Positions 31,357-47,872 of a stretch of 64,000 nucleotides of DNA are shown piece after piece. The notes beneath the pieces were generated by a model. That model had not been told where the DNA came from. It saw nothing but the letters and a program-made list of their open reading frames with translations, and did no database searches. The first letter of the stretch is position 1; the number at the start of each line of letters is the position of its first letter. Source of the stretch: Cystobasidiopsis lactophilus (Eukaryota > Basidiomycota > Agaricostilbomycetes > Agaricostilbales > Chionosphaeraceae); assembly GCA_001599975.1 (NCBI GenBank), contig BCIO01000006.1, forward strand, positions 1,545,587 through 1,609,586, written 5' to 3'. A program made the position numbers and the translations under genes.

Positions 31357-31506
31357 TTATCCACTTGTACTCTCGAGCAAGCTGCTGTAATCTCGTCTTA
31401 ACTATTTGCTGCACCCACAAATGGCAGAGTTCGAGCGATGACTCCGCCGCGCGGTGGCTGCAAACAGCCTGCGAAGGGTTTCTCATCGACGTCGACGTTC
31501 TGCAAG

Positions 31507-32794
31507 ATGAACTCAGAGCACGCTGCTGGTCTTGATAGACCCATCGAAATCAATATCAAATTGGCACCTGGCGCCAGCGCGGAACCCTTTCTCCTTCTGC
31601 CTACAGTCGCCCTTCTTGCTATGGAGGCCGCGCTCCCTGAGGGCTTTCTCAATGTCGGCTTTCTCACCCACACGATGGTTTGCATCACTGGCCAGAAAGG
31701 AGTGCTTGTTCCCATGTATCCCAGCTCGCACCAACTGCGCCTTGAACTCCACCTGCCTCTGCGCGAATTGGCTGCGACATGCTCGTCCCTCCGATGCGAC
31801 ATCCCAGACACAGCGGTCAAAGCGCTACCGATCACCATCATTCCAGCTAGCGAACTCACCAAGGCGGGCTCAGCGTCATACTCCGAATCGTCAAGCTCGT
31901 CTGGCGGATCGGGAAGATTGAGCGACCCGGTATCAGCTATCTCGCTAAGTGAGCTCCGGAACGAGGGGTTGGACACTGGCGACAACCTGCCGTGGGTGTT
32001 TGAAGGAGAGGCCTTGGCCAAGAGTACGCGGCAAAAGCAACTTCGAGAGTTGGTTGTCACGAGGGACGGCGATTGCCGTGTGTCAAAGCGGCCTGCGTTT
32101 GAGTCGGATGCTGCCCACCTCATAAAAGACTCTAATCCTGATATAGTGAGCGGCTTCCCGGGTTTGAACTTCCACGCGACTCACGACGAAACAGAATCTC
32201 ATCCATGTCGTGGCGACGCGACAGCACCTCTATCCCAATTCCACAATGACGCTGCGCTCATTGTCCAAAGGAGTAAACCGACCAAAACCCTTCCCGCCTT
32301 CAACGATTGGGACTGACAGTCGAGCCAGGTCTTTGACCCGAGGGCGGCCCTGCTCATTCAATCAACCTTGCAGAAGCACTACCTCGATAACAACATCATG
32401 TCGATCTACCAGGTGCGTCATCCCTCTTGACTTTTGCGCCTCCGCTTCTGATTGTGTTCAGCTACCCAACGTCACAATCGAGGGCAACGATCAGCTAGCG
32501 GGCGCCTCTTCCTGCCGCGGTGTCCTACTGCCTCTCAACAATCTCGCCCTCACTTGCCTGACTGAGACCTATATTTTCAAGTCCCGCCCGCCAGCCGAGC
32601 TACTGGGCCACCTCTTCGGCCTGGAACCGGGCGTCGAAGAGCCTTTGCCCTTGCTTATCGATTGGTTCCATGGCAGCCGCATGCTGTCTCATTTCGGGTC
32701 ATTGCAGGCGAAAGATTTCGTTCGACAGTCGCCGATGGTCTACACCATCAACGCGTGGGCTGACAAGAAGACGGCTCGAAAGAGGACCAGGTAA
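31507..32794 (+). CDS. HNH_2-type protein, copy A (probably degenerate active site)
   Basis: ATG 31507 (MNSEHAAGLDRPIEINIKLA) was chosen because the same start is kept in copy B; ATG 31438 is an alternative. The N-terminal half is conserved between copies (LLLPTVALLAMEAALPEG). The C-terminal half matches fungal HNH_2 proteins: LVVTRDGDCRVSKRPAFESD-AAHLIKDSNPDI, intron, LIHVVATRQHLYPN-STMTLRSLSKGVFDPRAA. The first His (AAHL) is present, but the H before xxFD is replaced by Lys. Three introns (about 32145-32193, 32271-32329, 32413-32461) restore the frame through SRMLSHFGSLQAKDFVRQS to the stop at 32794. The function is not known in fungi. Confidence 0.68.
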
Positions 32795-33108
32795 GAGCGG
32801 CGGTTCTCCCGTCGACATGATCAAGCGGTCGCCAGCGTAAGCAAAATGATGGCCAAGATCGTGTGCACAGTGCGGTGGCGAAGGAGCACTGAAGGAGCAC
32901 TTGGACTTGGGAAATACATGTCGCTTGTTTTCCTTTCTTTCCAGCAATTCGTCGAATCCGTTTCGGGTCCAAGTCCTAGCATCTTGAATGCCAATGTTAT
33001 AGCTGTTGGCTGCACTCGCTTTCGAGACCACAATCGGCCAAACTCGAACGTTGGCTCCGCCGGGCGGTGGCTGCGAAGGGTTTCTCATCGACGTCGACGT
33101 TCTGCAAG

Positions 33109-34406
33109 ATGAACCCAGAGCACGCTGCTGGTCTTGATAGGCCCATCGAAGTCAATATCAAATTGTCCCCTGGCGCCAGCGCGGAGCCCTTTCTCCTTCT
33201 GCCTACAGTCGCCCTTCTTGCTATGGAGGCCGCGCTCCCTGAGGGCTCTCTCAACGTCGGTTTTCTCACCCACACGATGGTTTGCATCACTGGCCAGAAG
33301 GGGACTCTTGTGCCGATGTATCCCGACTCGCAGCAGCAGCGCCCCTTCCAACTGGAGCTGCCTCTCCGCGAACTAGTCGCGACGTGCGCATCGCTTCGAT
33401 ACGACATCCCGGAGACAGCGATTGAAGCTCTACCCATCACCATCATCCCAGCTAGCGAGCTCACCAAAGCAGGATCTGCTTCATGTTCTGGATCTTCAAG
33501 CTCCTCCGCCGAGTCTGGGTCAGCAGTCTCGCTCGGTGAACTTTGGAGCGAGGGCCTAGATACGGGAGACAAGCTGCCATGGGTCTTTCAAGATGAAAAG
33601 CTGTCAAAGTCCACCCGACAGAAACGTCTCTGGGATGCGGTGGTTCCAAGGGATAAGATGTGCCGGGCGACGCAGAATCCTGCGGACCATTCGAAGGCTG
33701 CCCACCTTATCAAGAAGAGCAATCCCGACATAGTCAGTCTCGCTCTCTTGCCATTGTGGGGCATGGGCTAAAACAGACACCAGAATTTGATTCACGTTGT
33801 GGCCACTCGTGGCAAACTTTATCCTGCGTTGGACTTGGAACTTCGCTCTTTGTCAAAAGGGGTAGGCCCTTCTCATTCTGATGCTACAGTACCTCCTGGT
33901 GGGTCTGATTGTCGCAATACAGCTGTTTGATGAACGGGTCGCTCTCCTCCTGCATGCTCCTTTACTCCGATACGAGCTTGACACCAATCGCATGTCCATC
34001 TACCAAGTTGATCCTAGCTATGAATTAGTCTTTTGCAAGTTGGCTGAATCGTTTAGAGCAGACGCCCAATATTACACTACCCGATAGCCAGAGTTCTTCT
34101 TGCGCCTGGCTTTTGCCTCTCAATAGCCGAGCGCTCGAGTATCTTTCCGAGAATTACATCTACAAGTCAAAACCACCGACTCCACTGCTTGTGCAATCCT
34201 TTGGTCTCGAAGCGGGCAGGAACGAACCTCTGCCATTGTTGTTCGACTGGTTTCATGGCAGCAAGATGTTGTCCCACTTCGGTACACCAGAAGCCAAAAG
34301 CTTTGCCACTTCGTCACCCATGGTGTACTCGGTAAAGCGATACCTGCAAAAGACGGAAGAGAAGCAGATGAAGGCAGTGACCGGGAGAAGCGGCTCGCCC
34401 ATATGA
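33109..34406 (+). CDS. HNH_2-type protein, copy B (degenerate active site)
   Basis: Tandem paralogue of copy A, offset by 1,602 bp at the start codon. The first ~200 bp of coding sequence are nearly identical at DNA level, and identity falls towards the 3' end. The order is the same: MNPEHAAGLDRPIEVNIKLS, LLLPTVALLAMEAALPEG, Ser-rich linker, AVVPRDKMCRATQNPADHS-KAAHLIKKSNPDI, HVVATRGKLYPALDLELRS-LSKGLFDERVALL. Here the Asn position is also changed (PALD in place of PNST). Introns at about 33734-33787, 33862-33920 and 34010-34065 give one frame to the stop at 34406. Both copies are intact as proteins but probably not as nucleases. Confidence 0.66.
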
Positions 34407-37958: not shown

Positions 37959-38453
37959 CCTGTTCCGCTTGCGCTTTCGAGGGCGCGGTGCAAAGTTGGA
38001 AATAGTGGGCTGGGTTTGACGAAGCGTTGGTGGCAGCTTGGTGGCGGACTTTTTAGTTTCTTCGTCCATAGCCATGGTCCCTTAGAAGCTTCAATTTAAA
38101 GTCCTCTAGAACCACTTTTTGTCTGCAAGCCTGACCTGGGCTCGTCAGACGCTGGAGAAACTGGTTTTCGACTCGGTCAGCGACCTGATGAGCTAACCTC
38201 TTCCTCCCGGACGCCCTTTGCCTTCTTTCTGGGTATTACATTGAAGTCTTGCTGCCCATCTCAGCCCAAGGATTGCTTATCATCTCCTTCTCTCGCGTCC
38301 TTCTCGCTGCAGGCTGAGAATTTCTTCGAAGCCGTCGTGTCTGCCAGTTTCGGTCGCTCTCGGTTCTCTGCCTCTCTGTCTTGCCCCTGCTCTTGCTCCT
38401 GCACGACTTTGAGCTCGATTTTGGGCCATACCGACGGCCGTGCGGTTACAGCA

Positions 38454-39829
38454 TGGCGTACGCTTTCGAAATCTATCGTAACAGACGTGTAGAGCTGCTT
38501 GACCTGCGTGAGTTTCTCAGACCGAAAGCCCGCAGTATAAATGCGCTAACAGTCAGTAAAGCCAACGAGATCCTCACTCGCATCATGCGGCTCGCTTCCG
38601 TCCAGACATTGCCGCGATATCGGGTGCTCGCTCGTCTTATTGAAAGCGCCGAACTACCGTGCGGATTCGACGCAACTCCCCCCAACACAGCATACGTTTG
38701 CAAACGTTTCAGTGCCATTACTTCCGCTGTGGTCTGGGAAGAAGTGGAGCTAGAGCTTATAGTGGGATACGATGGTCACGGCAATGTGAAGGTTCAAGAG
38801 GCCAAGGAGACACTGTCGAGATCGCTGTCAAAACGGACGCATCTCATCCGCCGTGTGCACCTCACGTCGGGCACCGTCCATGTCCAAAAGTACTTGCCTT
38901 TCTTTGAAGTTCTCCACGACCTTCTTCCGCATGTCCGCCTCTATCTCAAAGCTGCGGTGGTGCTTTCGACTTCCTTACAGGAAATGGTCTCACATCCTTC
39001 GTTTTTGGGCCTCCGCGATATTCTCTATAGCCTGGACCTCACAGGCGCCACGCAAGGTCGGCCCACCCCCTTGCCTCTATCATTCCCACATCTCGCGCGC
39101 ATCTCGTGCTCTCCCCCTCTCCTAGCTGCCAGTTCCTTTCCCATGATGGACTCCGGCTTCGGTGATTTGGCTTCATCAATGGAATTCCGACGGGACCGAC
39201 AAGGAGAATGGAGCCCGCATTCTGCAACATTCTGGGTGGATTGGAGCCAGCGAATCGGTGCCAAACCGAGACCCACACAGCGCGAAGTACTATGGCACCG
39301 CGCTTTGAACATTCTGCGAGCGGCGGATACACTGAAGGAACTGGAGCTCGGGATGGTCAGCAAGGAAATTGCCAAGTTTAACGATTGGGCGGACGCTCTG
39401 CCCGCCTCTTCTCTCCAAAAGTTGGAGGTCAGCCTCATTGTTCGACCTACACGGTCCACCAAGTGCCCCGATCTGGCACCGCTCTCGGTACTACGCCGGC
39501 TGCGCCGGTTCCACCTCGTCGAAGATATTCGCCAGTCTCTGGACTTCTTCAATATCAATCACTACACTTCCGCTCGGGTCATGAAAGGTCGGAAGCCCTC
39601 GCTCGAGGGACTGCCGCCGTCGCTGGAAACTCTCCGTATTACCGGCAGCTTTCAATTTTTGATCCCACTCCTGTCCAGCATTACTGGGACGGCGACTTAC
39701 CCGAATCTTCAAACATTGGAGGTGTGCATGTATGAAGGAACAGGCGAGACTCCCGCCTTGAAAGCAGCTATCAATGCAGCTTGTCCTTTCGCCAAAACCC
39801 TGCTCGCCGTCAAGAAGAAAGTGGTCTGA
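38454..39829 (+). CDS. F-box/LRR-like protein, copy 1
   Basis: ATG 38454 gives MAYAFEIYRNRRVELLDL. An intron starting at gtgagt (about 38512) and ending near 38561 creates ELLDLPNEILTRIMRLAS, a good F-box core (Skp1-binding, SCF ubiquitin ligase). The rest is a solenoid-like series: TAYVCKRFSAITSAVVWEEV, THLIRRVHLTSGTVHV, LRDILYSLDLTGATQGR, LPLSFPHLARISCSPP, LKELELGMVSKEIAKF, SLQKLEVSLIVRPT, LETLRITGSFQFLIPLLSSI, LQTLEVCMYEGTGETP. The stop is at 39827-39829. Copy 2 follows in tandem and keeps the F-box intron and the solenoid order. Confidence 0.72.
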
Positions 39830-40388: not shown

Positions 40389-41693
40389 ATGCCTGAACTC
40401 CTTGATCTCCGTGAGTTGCCCCTCGAAAACTACAATATTGAGGAATGACCTGTGGATGAAGCCAACGAGGTGCTCATTGAAATTGTTCGGCTAGCACTAG
40501 TCGACACGATGCCGCGATATGGGCTGCTCACGCGAAATGGGTGGCTCTGGAATCGGCATCCGGGCATTCTATGCGGTTTCGACACATCTCCCCCTAACAT
40601 GGCCTACGTCTGCAAGTTTCTAGGGGGTATCACATCTGCTGTGGTCTGGGAAACGGTGGCGATAGAGGACAGAGCTCAGAACAGTAAAGACTTGCTGTCG
40701 AGGTCACTCGCAAAACGCGCCCACCTCATACGCCAAGTTTACATTGAGGCCAATGCAAACGATGTAGATGCCAACGCTCACACCTTCGAGGCCATACACG
40801 ACACAATTCCTTTTGCCCGGCTCTACCTCAAGATCAACGTGGATCAGCCAACTTCCTTGCAGGAACTGGTGTCGCATCCTTCGTTCCAGCGCCTGCGCGA
40901 CAGCCTGTATCACTTGGACCTCTGCGGTGGTTCCGAAGGTCGGCCGGCGCCTCTACCCCTGTCGTTTCCGCACCTAGTGCGCATCTCTTGCCATCCTCCC
41001 CGTCTGGCGGCACAGTCGTTTCCGGCTATGGATGCAGCCTACAAGAATTCGGCGTCCATTGTGGTGCTTCGACGAGGGCAAGATGGGTCGTGGGGCATCT
41101 CCGCTGCTATACTTTGGGCGAATTGGGACGAGCGCGTTGACAGGAACAAGCCGCGCGAAACCCTGCGTAACCGGGCGCTAGATTTTATTCGGTCGGCCTC
41201 TACACTAAAGCAGGTGCATGTGGGATTGGACATCAAAGAGGCCGCCCATTTCAGCGAATGGGTTAGCGCCCTGCCGGCCGCCTCCCTTCAGGATTTGAAG
41301 CTCAACCTCGTCGTCCGGCCACTTCAGCCAACGACCATCCTCGACTTTGCTCCCTTTTTGTCGTTCAGCGAGCTCCGGCGTTTCAATTTCATTGAAGACA
41401 CACGGCAAGGTCTCATGATGTGGCGTGCCCACGGTCCTGAAGCTTCGGTTCGCGTCATGGCCGGACAGGCGCCCACTCTCAAGGGGATGCCACCGTCGCT
41501 GGAGACCATTTGCCTCACTGGCAGCTCTCAATTCTTGACTCCACTCCTTACCAGCATCACTGCGGCCTCTTTTCCAAACCTCCGAACAATGCAGTTGTGC
41601 CTGTATGAGGGCACCGGGGACATCGACCACTCAGTCATAGCAGCTGTCCAAACAGCTTGCCCCTTCGTCCAAACAACGCTGGTGACCTGGTGA
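40389..41693 (+). CDS. F-box/LRR-like protein, copy 2
   Basis: ATG 40389 gives MPELLDL; an intron (about 40411-40459) makes ELLDLPNEVLIEIVRLAL, a textbook F-box core. The body aligns with copy 1 throughout: NMAYVCKFLGGITSAVVWET, AHLIRQVYIEANANDV, LRDSLYHLDLCGGSEGRPAP, LPLSFPHLVRISCHPP, TLKQVHVGLDIKEAAHFSEW, LETICLTGSSQFLTPLLTSI, LRTMQLCLYEGTGDI. The stop is at 41691-41693. The upstream non-coding DNA also resembles that of copy 1 (CTAACCT-x-TTCCT block at about 40133 versus about 38193), so promoter and gene were duplicated together. Targets are unknown. Confidence 0.72.
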
Positions 41694-42408
41694 CCAAGAA
41701 GAACTTCAAGATTTGGTGATGTGCGAACCTTCCTTTGGCTATCCCTTTGAGTGTCGCTGAACACCAAAATGCAGCCAACAACAATTTGTCTGTGTACGAT
41801 TATACGCATATCTTGTCGCTTCAAGCATGAAAACTCGCCTCATCTCTACGACCGGTTCTTGCAGCTCATTTCTCGCGCGCACACTTTCGGGCTTGCCTCC
41901 TCAATTACTCTGGGCCTCTTCACTCGCTATCTTCTCTAGTTCTGATGGTGGTGGGATACGGCGAGAGCGGCAGGAAGGGACTTTACTCTGGGACGGACTT
42001 GGGTGAAGGTGGCGCAGAGTGCTGGGCAATGGAAATCTAGAGCTGTCGGTCCGCGGGCTGCACTCTCGGTGTTTTTGCATCGCTCTGATGAAACAAATGC
42101 ACAAGTCTGCTCGACTTGGGCGAGCTACCAGTTCCTGCACCTCGTGGCAAAAGCTCCTTTCGCCTCAGCACTCTCTTCCTCGCAAAGTTGACCTTGTCCT
42201 ACGCACGTTCCTCTCCAAAGGCTCTTATTGATTGTCTGGTAGGTGCCTGGCCCATCCCAAGCTGAAGGAAGCGACGCTCACTTCGAACAAGCATTCCCGC
42301 CGACTGGTCTGCTTTTGGCTCGTTTGTCTGCTAAGGTCTCGCCTTGCCGTCGCACACAGTACAGTATCACCCACGCCTCGCATCAAGTAGAACCGACCAG
42401 AACATCGA

Positions 42409-43086
42409 ATGGTGTCGACTAAACAGACCGCCAGGAAGTCCACCGGCGGGAGAGCGCCGCGGAAGTCATTGCACGCTCAGGGACCGCCGCCGCCCCGGGA
42501 GCAACTGGCGCTTCGAGTTGCCGCAGCCGAGGAGAACGATGTAGAAGAAGCCGAAGAGGAGCCAGAGGAGGAAGAAGAGGAGCCAGAGGCTGGGGCCGCC
42601 GACACCCGCTCTCTGACCGCCCGCTTGGACAAGATCTCCAGCCGGTTGGACAGCCTGGTCTCCCTCTTCGCCAACTCCTCCGATCGGATCACTAGCATGG
42701 AAAACTTGCTGGAAAGGCTTGTGCCGGCGGTCGAGGCAGGATCGAGTTCAACCAAAGCCGCTTCTCGGTCTAGCCCGGCAAAAGCTGAAGAAGGCGACGA
42801 GGTAGGAAATATTGTCAGAGAATGGAAAACCCAAACTAACAGGATGAGCGATCAGCAGACTTCTAAGAAGCTTCAGCTACTGGTCCGACATGGCAAGCGG
42901 CCGGCCGACTCACAAGCGGGGCCGTCTTCATCCTCCAAGGCTCCCAAGACCGAGCCCTCTGCTTCCACGCTGACAATCACGCATCCGAGTGAGTGCATTG
43001 CAGCTGCCCTAGCAAGCGCTTATTGGGATGCTTTTATACTTACTCACGCCGCTAGGGGACTAAATCTCTGTTCTCGGAGTGGATAA
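42409..43086 (+). CDS. Array gene B: histone H3-tail mimic fused to a coiled coil
   Basis: ATG 42409 encodes [20 protein letters not shown]. Histone H3 after its Met reads [20 protein letters not shown]: 16 of the first 20 positions match, including K4, R8, K9, S10, T11 and K18, while R2, K14 and Q19 are changed. A Pro-rich spacer, a long Glu run (acidic), then a Leu-heptad coiled coil follow ([38 protein letters not shown]). After an intron (about 42802-42855) comes the family motif [20 protein letters not shown]. No histone fold is present, so this is not an H3 gene. The 3' end is uncertain: a late intron would give a stop at 43061-43063, the unspliced frame at 43084-43086. Confidence 0.72.
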   Translation: [225 protein letters not shown]

Positions 43087-43730: not shown

Positions 43731-44317
43731 ATGCAGCCGCGCAAGGTGCTTGCATGCAAGGCCGCTTGGAAAACCACTCGGCCCTGGCCTCCCCCGGCCC
43801 TAGCGGCGAGGGCTGCTCGTAAAATGCCTCCGCCCCAGAATTATGACGACGATGAAGAGTCTGACGATGAAGAGGGCTCCATCACTGAGGAAGAGAGGGA
43901 GGCTTTGGTCGCCCGCCTGGACACCATCTCGGACCGGCTGGACAGCCTGGTCTCGCTCTTTGCCAACTCGGCGGATCGGATCGACCGCATGGAGAAGATC
44001 CTGGAGCAGCTTGTCCCTGCTGTCGAGGCTGCATCTCCACCGTCGAAGTTGACAGTTCGCTCCGTCTCAAGGCCGGCCAAGCGCGAAACCAAGGAGGTGG
44101 GCAATCCTTCCTTCTCGGTGTGCTTTGATGAACGACTCAAATCTTTCATTTGATACAGTCGAGCACCAAAGAATCTGGACCCAGCGCCAGACCGCCCAAG
44201 CGGGCTGCCGACTCGGAAGCCAGCCCTTCCTCCTCCAAGGCTCCTAAGGCCGAAGCCTCCGAATCTGTGTTGCATATCAACCACCCGAGTAACAATCCTT
44301 TCTATGATTCAAGATGA
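43731..44317 (+). CDS. Array gene C: coiled-coil paralogue of B
   Basis: The frame is open from ATG 43731 (MQPRKVLACKAAWKTTRPWP), with a second Met at 43824 (MPPPQNYDDDEESDDEEG). The segment before the second Met ends LAARAARKMPPP, reminiscent of H3 residues 20-30 (LATKAARKSAP). An acidic stretch precedes a coiled coil almost the same as B's ([40 protein letters not shown]). An intron (about 44097-44158) leads to PKRAADSEASPSSSKAPKAE and VLHINHPS, matching TLTITHPS of B; stop 44315-44317. It lacks the LH-x-SLG module. Which Met is used is undecided. Confidence 0.62.
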
Positions 44318-45484
44318 CTATCCGCTGAAGTGGGAACGACAGGTTCCTGAAGAGGGATCGATGGGCCTCTCACATCTGAAAAGTCCAGAAATTGGACCTT
44401 GGCCTGGTATATGGGTGCCAAGAAGAGCTGTTCAATGTTTACGAGATAGTGTCTGCAAATTGGCCTTGTGACGTCTTGAACAATTTCACAGGCTCGAGAG
44501 CCGTTATGGGGGAAAAGAAAAATGAGAACAAAACCGGCGCTGAATTCTCTTGTCCTGCTACAACGATTCGGAGGTTGGGAAGGCTCCCGAAGCCCCAAGT
44601 GGCGTCCCCATCCAACCGGGGCCCACTTGGCGGTAAGGTAGAGGCCAGACCGTAAAACTGCGAGGCATGGACGCCCGGTTCCCTAATGCTCTTACTGCCT
44701 GGGTTTTTTTACTGCCTGTATGCTCTTGATAGCCCATAGCGGCTCGTTGTCACCGGTCGGCCAAGCCGGTCCGTCGTTTCGAGATGCTGCCTTGGTGCAG
44801 CTGAGCCGTTGTCGAGCATCGAAGCCTCAACGGCCTGCACTTTGGGTCTTCGTGCTCATTGTACTAGCCAAAAAAGCTTTGAATAGAGTTAGAGGGCAGC
44901 AATAGAAGCAGCCTGAGGCGCTGTGGGGCATAACGGCTGCCGAGTTTGCCACCTTCGTTCCCGGAATTGGCAGGCTGGCTTGGGTTACTTGGTCCTCGCA
45001 CGGCGAATCATATGATAACTCCCGGAAGATTCAAGTCTTCGATAGCAATAGGAACCAAGCAGCAAAAGATGGAGCCTCCAAATCCAAGCGCCCGAACCAT
45101 TGTTCAGCGATTTGTAGCCATATCGAGGATTCAGCAAGCCAAGGAGTCGTCAGAGCACACATTCACACGTCATAAGCGCACAACGCGAGGGAGACCAGAG
45201 CCACCAGAAGTGAAGTGGGCGAAGCCGCCTTGATCGCCTGGCTCCAAGCGCCTTTTGAAGTCTGGCGGCCTTTTGTTCTATTGCATACCCGGGCATCGAG
45301 TGTCTTAATTGGAGGGCTTGGAACCAGACGAGCAAGCAAGAGTACTGCTGCTGTCCCTGCATTAGCTCCCGCGGTTGTCAAAGGCAATGGCAGCAGCAAC
45401 GCCGAATCTCTGTGCGTTTGATGCGGTCGTGCTATCTGTTCCTTGGGGCTGCCTCTGATTCGCGCCCTCCTTGCTCGATCAGCC
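44318..45484. other. Region of 1.17 kb without a supported gene
   Basis: Frames of 60-90 codons exist on both strands, but none shows a family motif, signal or splice-consistent extension. It is the longest gene-free stretch inside the array and could hold a dead member too diverged to see. Confidence 0.4.
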
Positions 45485-46882
45485 ATGCCAAGTCGATCCC
45501 GACGGCCTCCAGGAGTTGCCCGAGAGCACGTTGTCCCCTCTATAGGCCGCAGGAACGACGTTGCAGATCGGCCGCCCACTGCGTCCAGGTCCGAAGCACG
45601 GCTGCTCACGACCAGCCTGTATCAGTCGATGCAGTCAACAAACCTGTTGGCAGCTGCCCAAATCAGGACGGAGGTCGGCAGGACTGCAACGGGCGCCAGT
45701 CAAGTCGAGCCTGAGGTTGGGCTCACGCTCGCCGCCGCGGCAGCCAAAGCTATGGCCAACCAACCTCCAAGCGCAATTAGCATCAGAGGGAGAGCGGCAG
45801 CGCCATGGAGCAGCCATCCCTGGCTTCCCGATCCCAGTGCACTGGCTCGCTCTAACAATGGCCCTTCGCCCAAAGCGAACATCAAATGGTTCCGTGACGG
45901 CCTCTGGGATGATTCCCTCTATTATGCAGTCAAAGGTGCAGATTGTCCTTCGATCACTTCCAGCGTATGGCTAAATCCTTTCCCTCGCCTCGCAAAGCTC
46001 CCGCCTCTTCACGCCGATCCGGCAGCACTTGGGGCCCTACCGTAGCCCGCACTCCAGTGACCCAGCGAGACCCTACAGCCGTCGTACACAGATCCAAAGG
46101 CAAAGAGAAGGCCACTGCACCCAAGGCCATCCCACCTTCGCCACCTGTACCAAGCAAGTCCACTCGCTCTCCCAATGACCGGTCAAAAGCGCCGGAAGGG
46201 GGCCAAGCTGCCGCTGTTCCTGCTCCTGCCAGACCCTCGGAGCGCCCTTCCTCTTCCAGTCGCCATGCCGGGACTGGTTCCAAGGTTTCAATCAGTAGCG
46301 CCGGCGTTCGGGCTAAGATCTCGCCTTCGGCACTCGCTGGCACCAGCCTGGCTACTGCTCAGTAAGATCACTCTCACCTTTTGTTCGGCGTCGCTGATTA
46401 CAGGCATAGGCAATCGTTGTCCGCTTCGGTCAAAGGCAGCAGCAGCACCACCTCTCCTCTCAAAACCCCCAAGCTTGAAAAAGATGACGAGCCATCGAGC
46501 TTTCGACTGCCCGAGCCTTTCACCCGCCCTAAGAAGAGGCCTGCGGATGAGCCGGCGCAGCCGTCTAGCAGCAGCAAGGCTCGCCGGTTCGATGCTCCAC
46601 CATCGCCAGGTTCGACTTCGGACCAGAATGCTTCTGCTTTGGTATGGACGAGCACCCAAGATAATCAGACGCTCTTCTGATTTTCGAGACTTGCTGAATA
46701 CAGAAAACGACGGCATGTCTAGGTCGCTTGCTGGTTATGGTTGCCAACCCGCACTCAAAGGACGATGTCAAGGCGCTGCTGCTGGTGCTTCATCAATCTC
46801 TTGGTATGTGTCGTTCCCGCTCCTTTTTATGCCGAATACTGACAATAGATCAACCGCAGGCTTCACTAAAGATGACTTTTGA
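45485..46882 (+). CDS. Array gene D: family member with C-terminal module
   Basis: ATG 45485 opens MPSRSRRPPGVAREHVVPSI. A short intron (about 45928-45963) joins DDSLYYA to RMAKSFPSPRKAPASSRRSG. A basic/Pro/Ser-rich region follows. After another intron come KTPKLEKDDEPSSFRLPEPF (acidic plus SFRxPE motif) and KKRPADEPAQPSSSSKARRF (family motif). Two last introns flank the module: exon from 46704 gives KTTACLGRLLVMVANPHSKD and DVKALLLVLHQSLG, then after a phase-1 intron FTKDDF and stop 46880-46882. The role is unknown. The basic clusters suggest a nuclear protein. Confidence 0.62.
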
Positions 46883-47306
46883 CTGCTGGCCTCCCCTGTC
46901 CTTCCCTCCGCCACTTTCGCCCTTTCGATGTGCTCCCTTCAACCTTGCATCTGTCTTTGCCGTATTCTACCTTGCTGGAGCGTGTGCTTCATGATGGGTT
47001 CTGTGTTGACCGTGGCGTTGTTTGTCTGGGACCTTTTTGCATTGCGCTTCTTTTTGAACCTCAGCTCCATCCCTTTTTGCGTCCAGTGGATAACTTTCTG
47101 CTGCGAAGTCCCGTTCTCCTTGCACGACACAAATGTCTAATCGGTCATTGGGAAAGATGAGAGGGAAGGCAGTGCAGTGTGCGCATTGACCGTCGCCGAG
47201 GAGTCGGCGCTCGAAACTTGAAAAGCCTTTCAGCCTCTTGTTCCCATACGGCCGTCTTCCTCGACTTACACCCTGCTTCTAGCCTCCGCTTCAGTTTCGG
47301 TGTAGA

Positions 47307-47872
47307 ATGGCGTCAAATTCCACCATGCCACCGCAGGCAGCGCAGAAAAAGAGTTTAGAGGGTGTGTGCCTCAGCCATTCGAGCTTTGATAGACGGCTTT
47401 GAGCAGGTGTGGCATAGAATGGGCAGAGGAGCGGCGAAAAGAAATGCTGTTCCGCCTGATGCAAAAAGACCGCAATGGATTTGAATCCGTGGCACCCGCC
47501 AAGAGAAAAGCGGAAACGCAAGACCTGCCGTCTTCAGACAGCGAAGTCCGCAAAGTTGATCCCGCCCAATCTGGTTCCAACTCCACCTCTCCTTCCACTG
47601 TATGCTTTGGTTCTCTTTGCTTTGCTTTCTGCCTTGATCTGATCTCATGTCCACAGCAAGAGCAGCAAAGCACGATGACCTGCTTGGGGAACATCATGCT
47701 CCTGGTTTCCAAACCTCACACTAAAGCGGACATGATTGGCCTGCTCCAGGGTTTGCACAAGTCTCTCGGTTCGTTTCTGCCTCCCGTCTGATCTCAATGA
47801 AGAACGTTTGAACCTTTGAGAGCAGGCATCGACAGCGCTGACTTTGCTCTCATCTGCCCTCCTCCCAAATGA
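47307..47872 (+). CDS. Array gene E: minimal family member, mostly the module
   Basis: ATG 47307 (MASNSTMPPQAAQKKSLEGV) is joined by a short intron to GIEWAEERRKEMLFRLMQKD. The family motif AKRKAETQDLPSSDSEVRKV follows almost at once. After the phase-0 intron the module exon starts at 47657: QEQQSTMTCLGNIMLLVSKP, HTKADMIGLLQGLHKSLG, then past the phase-1 intron IDSADFALICPPPK and stop 47870-47872. At about 135 residues it is the shortest member and shows the module as a self-standing unit with a short basic arm. The splice choice of the first intron is inferred from frame. Confidence 0.58.

Follow-up and report, generated by a model that had tools for sequence, protein, structure and literature searches.

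A candidate histone H3-tail mimic at the N terminus of a predicted coiled-coil protein in Cystobasidiopsis lactophilus

Gene B of Cystobasidiopsis lactophilus encodes a predicted non-histone protein that opens with 24 residues closely matching the N-terminal tail of histone H3. We put at about one in two the chance that this N terminus derives from H3, has been kept by selection and acts as a multivalent nuclear mimic of the H3 tail for the enzymes of Lys9 and Ser10 (K9/S10). The match itself is confirmed as real and beyond chance, and a histone-tail-like sequence on a non-histone protein makes B a candidate histone mimic.

The H3-like tail of gene B and the protein that carries it

Gene B lies in a 64,000-nucleotide stretch of DNA (the window; contig C6, positions 1545587-1609586) of a 22.1-Mb genome assembled in 8 contigs, with a GC content of 56%. 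First-pass annotation of this DNA had suggested comparing the tail of B with the genome's own H3 genes, of which we found five. Aligned without gaps and Met on Met, B and H3 are identical at 18 of 24 residues, the substitutions relative to H3 being A1V, R2S, K14R, Q19S, A21H and K23Q. Identity is unbroken from T3 to G13 and takes in the whole of QTARKSTGG, the context of K9 and S10; the kept residues listed in the annotation were all recovered, together with T3, which was absent from that list. At the very start of the tail, V1 and S2 stand in place of the ART or ARS found in H3K4-type mimics. Two of the H3 genes (L010 and L011) encode the 24-residue reference tail used here, and a 19-residue stretch is common to all five.

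The ungapped score of the B tail against H3 is 89, with 18 identities. The best values in 22 Mb of simulated sequence (11 × 2 Mb) were a score of 45 and 11 identities, and those in the rest of the window, with the B segment removed, were 30 and 8. When the whole 22.1-Mb genome was searched in six frames with residues 1-25 of B, six matches came back at E ≤ 10, namely gene B and the five H3 genes. The annotation's statement that the match lies far beyond chance therefore stands. A possible second H3-like segment follows the tail (Table 1); it is weak, its score having been reached in 18 of 4,000 shuffles of residues 26-42 and in 79 of 400 shuffles of residues 26-176.

The remainder of B does not look like a histone, as had been proposed from the DNA. 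A Pfam scan of the spliced B and C proteins (C being the tandem paralog described below) gave zero families at E ≤ 0.1, and a genome-wide search for the histone fold (PF00125) gave 11 matches, the gene B locus not among them. Judged by these searches the product of gene B is not an H3: it is without a histone fold and carries instead an acidic stretch, a predicted coiled coil, the a/d core of which is identical in B and C, and a basic, Ser/Pro-rich patch at the C terminus that by eye resembles a nuclear localization signal (NLS). AlphaFold2, given a two-sequence alignment of the exon-1 proteins of B and C, left residues 1-29 without secondary structure and placed helices at 30-41, 60-88 and 90-111; mean pLDDT was 67 and pTM 0.30, with the ten-residue blocks of 61-110 at pLDDT 80-96. 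The predicted layout of B is thus probably that of a flexible tail on a helical, multimeric stem.

The three-exon models of B and C come from comparison of the two genes, whose intron places agree, and predict spliced proteins of 176 and 167 aa, respectively; reading through intron 1 of B also keeps the frame. An in-frame TAG lies upstream of the ATG of gene B, at 42388-42390, and an additional coding exon 5′ of 42409 may exist. The next in-frame Met of exon 1 is residue 97, within the coiled coil, so that a later start there would leave neither the tail nor much of the coiled coil.

Table 1. Features of genes B and C, in window coordinates.
Feature	Position	Strand	Basis
H3-like N-terminal tail of gene B (24 residues)	42409..42480	+	identity to own H3; codon test
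Possible second H3-like segment of B (10 residues), weak	42493..42522	+	shuffle test
Gene B exon 1 (131 aa)	42409..42801	+	open frame; splice model from gene C comparison
Gene B intron 1 (57 nt, GTAGGA...GCAG)	42802..42858	+	model; intron 1 of gene C in the corresponding place
Gene B exon 2, basic/Ser-rich C-terminal part	42859..42988	+	model
Gene B intron 2 (67 nt)	42989..43055	+	model
Gene B exon 3 including stop	43056..43063	+	model
Acidic stretch of B (residues 41-67, net charge -15)	42529..42609	+	
Predicted coiled coil of B (residues 69-108), a/d core LLILLFSIMLL	42613..42732	+	heptad pattern
Gene C exon 1 (122 aa), tandem paralog of B	43731..44096	+	
Gene C intron 1 (62 nt)	44097..44158	+	model
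Gene C exon 2	44159..44288	+	model
Gene C intron 2 (54 nt)	44289..44342	+	model
Gene C exon 3 including stop	44343..44350	+	model
Putative decayed H3-like segment of C, PRKVLACKAAWKT against H3 16-28	43737..43775	+	shuffles, DNA score
Putative second H3-like segment of C, PPPALAARAARKMPP against H3 16-30	43788..43832	+	shuffles
Predicted coiled coil of C (residues 59-98), a/d core as in B	43905..44024	+	

The paralog C and the search for relatives

The protein encoded by gene C begins MQPRKVLACKAAWKTTRPWPPPALAARAARKMPPPQ and contains two segments resembling H3, PRKVLACKAAWKT with a score of 39 and PPPALAARAARKMPP with a score of 40; the annotation had made no mention of this resemblance. The first score was reached in 0 of 4,000 shuffles of residues 1-20; the second was reached in 1 of 4,000 shuffles of residues 20-36, but in 17 of 4,000 shuffles of residues 1-36. 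Shuffles of the whole protein reached the best score in 5 of 400 cases, and at the DNA level 13 of 3,000 control windows scored as high against H3 as C does. Among control open reading frames (ORFs) from 21 loci, 1 of 245 also scored 40 against the H3 tail. These segments were chosen after looking, and the Ala/Arg/Pro-rich composition of C favours such matches. Since shuffles of whole C and of its residues 1-36 do reach the best score, an H3 origin for C rests on the two segments jointly (0 of 2,000 shuffles) and on its paralogy with B. When the 219 ORFs of the window were ranked by likeness to the H3 tail (ORFs counted from their first ATG, at least 60 aa long, each scored over its first 36 residues), B came first and C second, the next scoring 30. 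The in-frame codons directly 5′ of the ATG of C read GRK, and the DNA alignment with H3 extends through them. The sequences 5′ of B, between the two genes and 3′ of C were also searched for further remnants of the H3 tail; the best ungapped scores in nine frames were 19-32, which we find unconvincing.

Over the 42 codons of the coiled coil, divergence between B and C amounts to dN 0.17 and dS 0.80 (NG86), or 0.15 and 1.15 (YN00); over the whole alignment of 154 codons the values are dN 0.43 and dS 1.43 (NG86). The coiled-coil parts of both genes are, on these substitution rates, under constraint. As a decayed piece of the tail seems to persist in C, the tail would have been joined to the coiled coil before B and C separated. 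We think it rather probable, on the sequences of the two genes, that their common ancestor already carried the H3 tail, and that B kept its first part while C, having lost the start, retains the second part in degraded form.

A search of the genome with C returned B, C and two weak matches (E 2.6 and 3.9) that we take as chance, which suggests only two clear members of the family in this genome. A search of 5.8 billion proteins with residues 25-176 of B gave 1,082 candidates, none at E ≤ 1, and one with residues 1-60 gave 3,300 candidates, none at E ≤ 10; true H3 proteins were also missing from the latter, which is hence insensitive to a short tail. A control search with a 204-aa piece of an SDR gene in the window found only two matches (52% identity, and 49% in Tremella mesenterica). 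The database is therefore thin in this clade and such negatives say little. Exon 1 of either gene found no match among viral contigs.

Other local duplications occur in the window. Directly upstream of B and C, at 38453-39829 and 40509-41693, lie tandem paralogous ORFs that by eye are LRR/F-box-like and have no Pfam match; this pair and B/C form two adjacent tandem duplications. Farther upstream, the ORFs at 31402-32313 and 32980-33768 share a near-identical stretch (GFSSTSTFCKMN.EHAAGLDRPIE.NIKL.PGASAEP), and downstream of gene C, at 46737-47791, a motif is repeated in two ORFs (NPHSKDDVKALLLVLHQSLG / KPHTKADMIGLLQGLHKSLG).

Origin of the tail and selection on it

From T3 to K18, B and H3 differ at 12 of 48 bases, 10 of them at third codon positions, and at only one of 16 residues (K14R). 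At the residues shared by B and H3, 6 of 17 codons are identical, where general codon usage predicts 6.8; with codon identity at background, the residues have outlasted the codons. Compared with the H3 gene L010 over 54 bases from the codon for Q5, 11 of the 19 differences in B fall within codons for the same residue. The tail was probably captured from H3. A route by exon shuffling at an intron that the H3 genes have today is unsupported: by eye, three of these genes have an exon end after K4 and the other two have one in codon 40, none of them near residue 20.

The basic tail of H3 is able to function as an import signal. In B, the captured tail might accordingly direct nuclear import or docking to histone chaperones instead of being a mimic that carries marks. 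The net charges of B residues 1-24 (+6) and of C residues 1-31 (+8) fit such a role. However, the uncharged T, Q, A, S and G of T3-G13, needless for a basic signal, have been kept exactly despite the codon changes, whereas K14 and K23 have been lost, and the NLS-like patch (by eye) already supplies a basic signal at the C terminus. We consider this explanation unlikely.

Another possibility is that a 5′ fragment of an H3 gene was joined by accident to an ORF and that its decay is still pending. The small size of the family, with two clear members in this genome and relatives not found, and the poor tail of C are consistent with such a relic. Neutral simulations run to the same DNA distance nevertheless gave a mean of 7.3 residue changes (s.d. 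1.3), or about 7 of the 16 residues against the one change seen, and 0 of 20,000 runs gave one change or fewer; the simulations assume descent from H3 codons resembling those of L010, and an H3 donor with other codons would weaken this argument. The fall of codon identity to background likewise tells against a relic, under the same proviso, and this reading seems to us quite unlikely. If H3 was the source of the tail, silent sites in it are close to saturated, and purifying selection has probably held its residues.

Codon identity is unable to separate descent from convergence: shared codons no more frequent than general usage predicts are equally in keeping with a tail built de novo by selection for binding H3-tail enzymes, with no copying of H3. 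Against such an origin, the 18 identical residues lie in register from the Met, some of them outside any single recognition motif, and C seemingly matches another part of the same tail, so we hold convergence to be very unlikely. The notion of an artefact (a misassembled H3 locus, which the annotation had named as a possible refutation, a wrong start, or chance) draws on the start and splicing of gene B being predicted from DNA, and is largely refuted by the 19, 19, 19, 19 and 20 differences in those 54 bases from the five H3 genes, which rule out misassembly, by the shortfall of simulated scores, and by the position of the next exon-1 Met.

Possible partners, proposed function and known mimics

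Most H3K4 readers use the free A1 and R2 of the tail. As V and S replace these residues in B, H3K4-type reading is unlikely, whereas the complete QTARKSTGG better suits an S10 kinase and the writers and readers of K9. The annotation had offered both K4 and K9 readers and writers, together with an S10 kinase, as partners of a decoy or scaffold; the K9/S10 part of that proposal agrees better with the sequence than the K4-reader part.

We searched the genome for candidate partners. A SET gene (L021, contig C3, 1336090-1336407) has RFLNHSC, a CxC post-SET motif and, by eye, split pre-SET-like cysteines. Its best PDB matches are SETMAR (1.8e-20), SUV39H2 (5.7e-12) and Clr4, with NSD (K36) chains near (1.6e-11), and it likely belongs to the K9 (SUV39/Clr4/SETMAR-like) class. 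A search of the genome for the Pre-SET family was empty, as it was in control genomes. The chromodomain search gave four matches, named by eye: an eEF3-like gene (L017), a pair taken from its spacing alone as CHD1-like, and a weak ABC-F-like match. HP1 is the usual reader of methylated K9; chromo-shadow and Swi6 queries found no match to it, a result that had no working positive control and does not imply absence. Were HP1 truly missing, acetylation or S10 phosphorylation would be the likelier use of the B tail. A SWIRM search, bearing on a possible LSD1, found two loci.

For B we infer nuclear location, multimerization, binding, modification and regulation along the following lines. The flexible H3-like tail would be followed by the acidic stretch, the coiled coil and the NLS-like C terminus; the coiled coil would join at least two chains, presenting several H3 tails per particle away from chromatin. 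These tails would be bound or modified by H3K9/S10 enzymes, such as an acetyltransferase, a SUV39/Clr4-type methyltransferase or an Aurora-type kinase, with which B would compete or which it would recruit. The paralog C would carry a truncated remnant covering about residues 14-28 of H3, with the K9 half lost. In a bolder version, which we think improbable, the captured tail has been split between the tandem paralogs, B keeping K4-K18 with the K9/S10 site and C keeping remnants of K18-K28 once or twice, and homo- or hetero-multimers of the two would display a soluble, non-nucleosomal H3 tail tuning H3 writers and readers as an endogenous decoy system.

SNAG domains lie at the N terminus of their proteins and have little sequence identity to H3. 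B shares with SNAG factors an N-terminal H3-tail mimic, but is nearly identical to H3, is without A1 and R2, and has no DNA-binding domain found by Pfam. H3 variants share 18 of the first 24 residues with B, which differs from them in lacking a histone fold (Pfam, E ≤ 0.1) and in its predicted coiled coil.

Histone mimicry is established, and mimicry of H3 in a fungus has already been published. In Snail and Slug the SNAG domain reportedly mimics the H3 tail and engages the active site of LSD1 (PMC10940100). Swi6/HP1 of fission yeast is, like B, a fungal non-histone protein with an H3 mimic sequence, in its case built in and auto-inhibitory (PMC7192584, citing Canzio et al. 2013); that sequence sits within a K9me reader, whereas B is without a reader domain (Pfam empty) and matches about 18 H3 residues from the Met. 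EZHIP/CATACOMB of placental mammals is also a host-encoded non-histone protein working through an H3-tail-like peptide, an inhibitory 14-residue motif in its C-terminal part, four residues of which (VRMR) mimic H3K27M (PMC6513997, PMC12713659); in B the match is N-terminal, spans about 18 H3 residues and keeps a modifiable K9. The tail of influenza A NS1 mimics the H3 N terminus (ARSK against ARTK; PMC10612106) and is viral, C-terminal and four residues long; that of B is encoded in the chromosome, spans about 18 residues at the N terminus and is centred on K9. Non-histone substrates of EHMT/G9a share with B an ARKS-like motif that is methylated as on H3, and were used as 10-residue segments (PMC10611923); theirs is a short linear motif, and B matches T3-K18 except at residue 14.

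What the NS1, EZHIP and EHMT-substrate mimics have in common with the tail is a short motif or some four residues, against about 18 in register and with scrambled codons in B. Among the matches listed from open-licence PMC papers, we recognised no non-histone protein with so long an H3 tail. B is set apart by the length and fidelity of its match, its very N-terminal place and its probable origin by capture. If the proposed function is correct, B would be a natural experiment: an H3 tail detached from the nucleosome would reveal which enzymes need only the tail to act, and whether soluble tails serve cells to buffer or to recruit chromatin enzymes, and capture of an H3 tail would become a testable evolutionary route.

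Two further observations concern the histone loci of this genome. The H3 gene L014 (contig C6, 69320-69858) has SAPTTGG instead of SAPSAGG, and its ARTK exon is preceded by ...TTNR, not directly by a start codon. On the minus strand of contig C5, 1629800-1631500, a divergent H4-like gene (L050; GAKRHRKVRKDAMAGVTKGDIRRLARRG; KISAQIYDPVREVLSK) is present beside four closer H4 loci. On its sequence it is a probable H4 variant, a class that to our knowledge is unusual in fungi.
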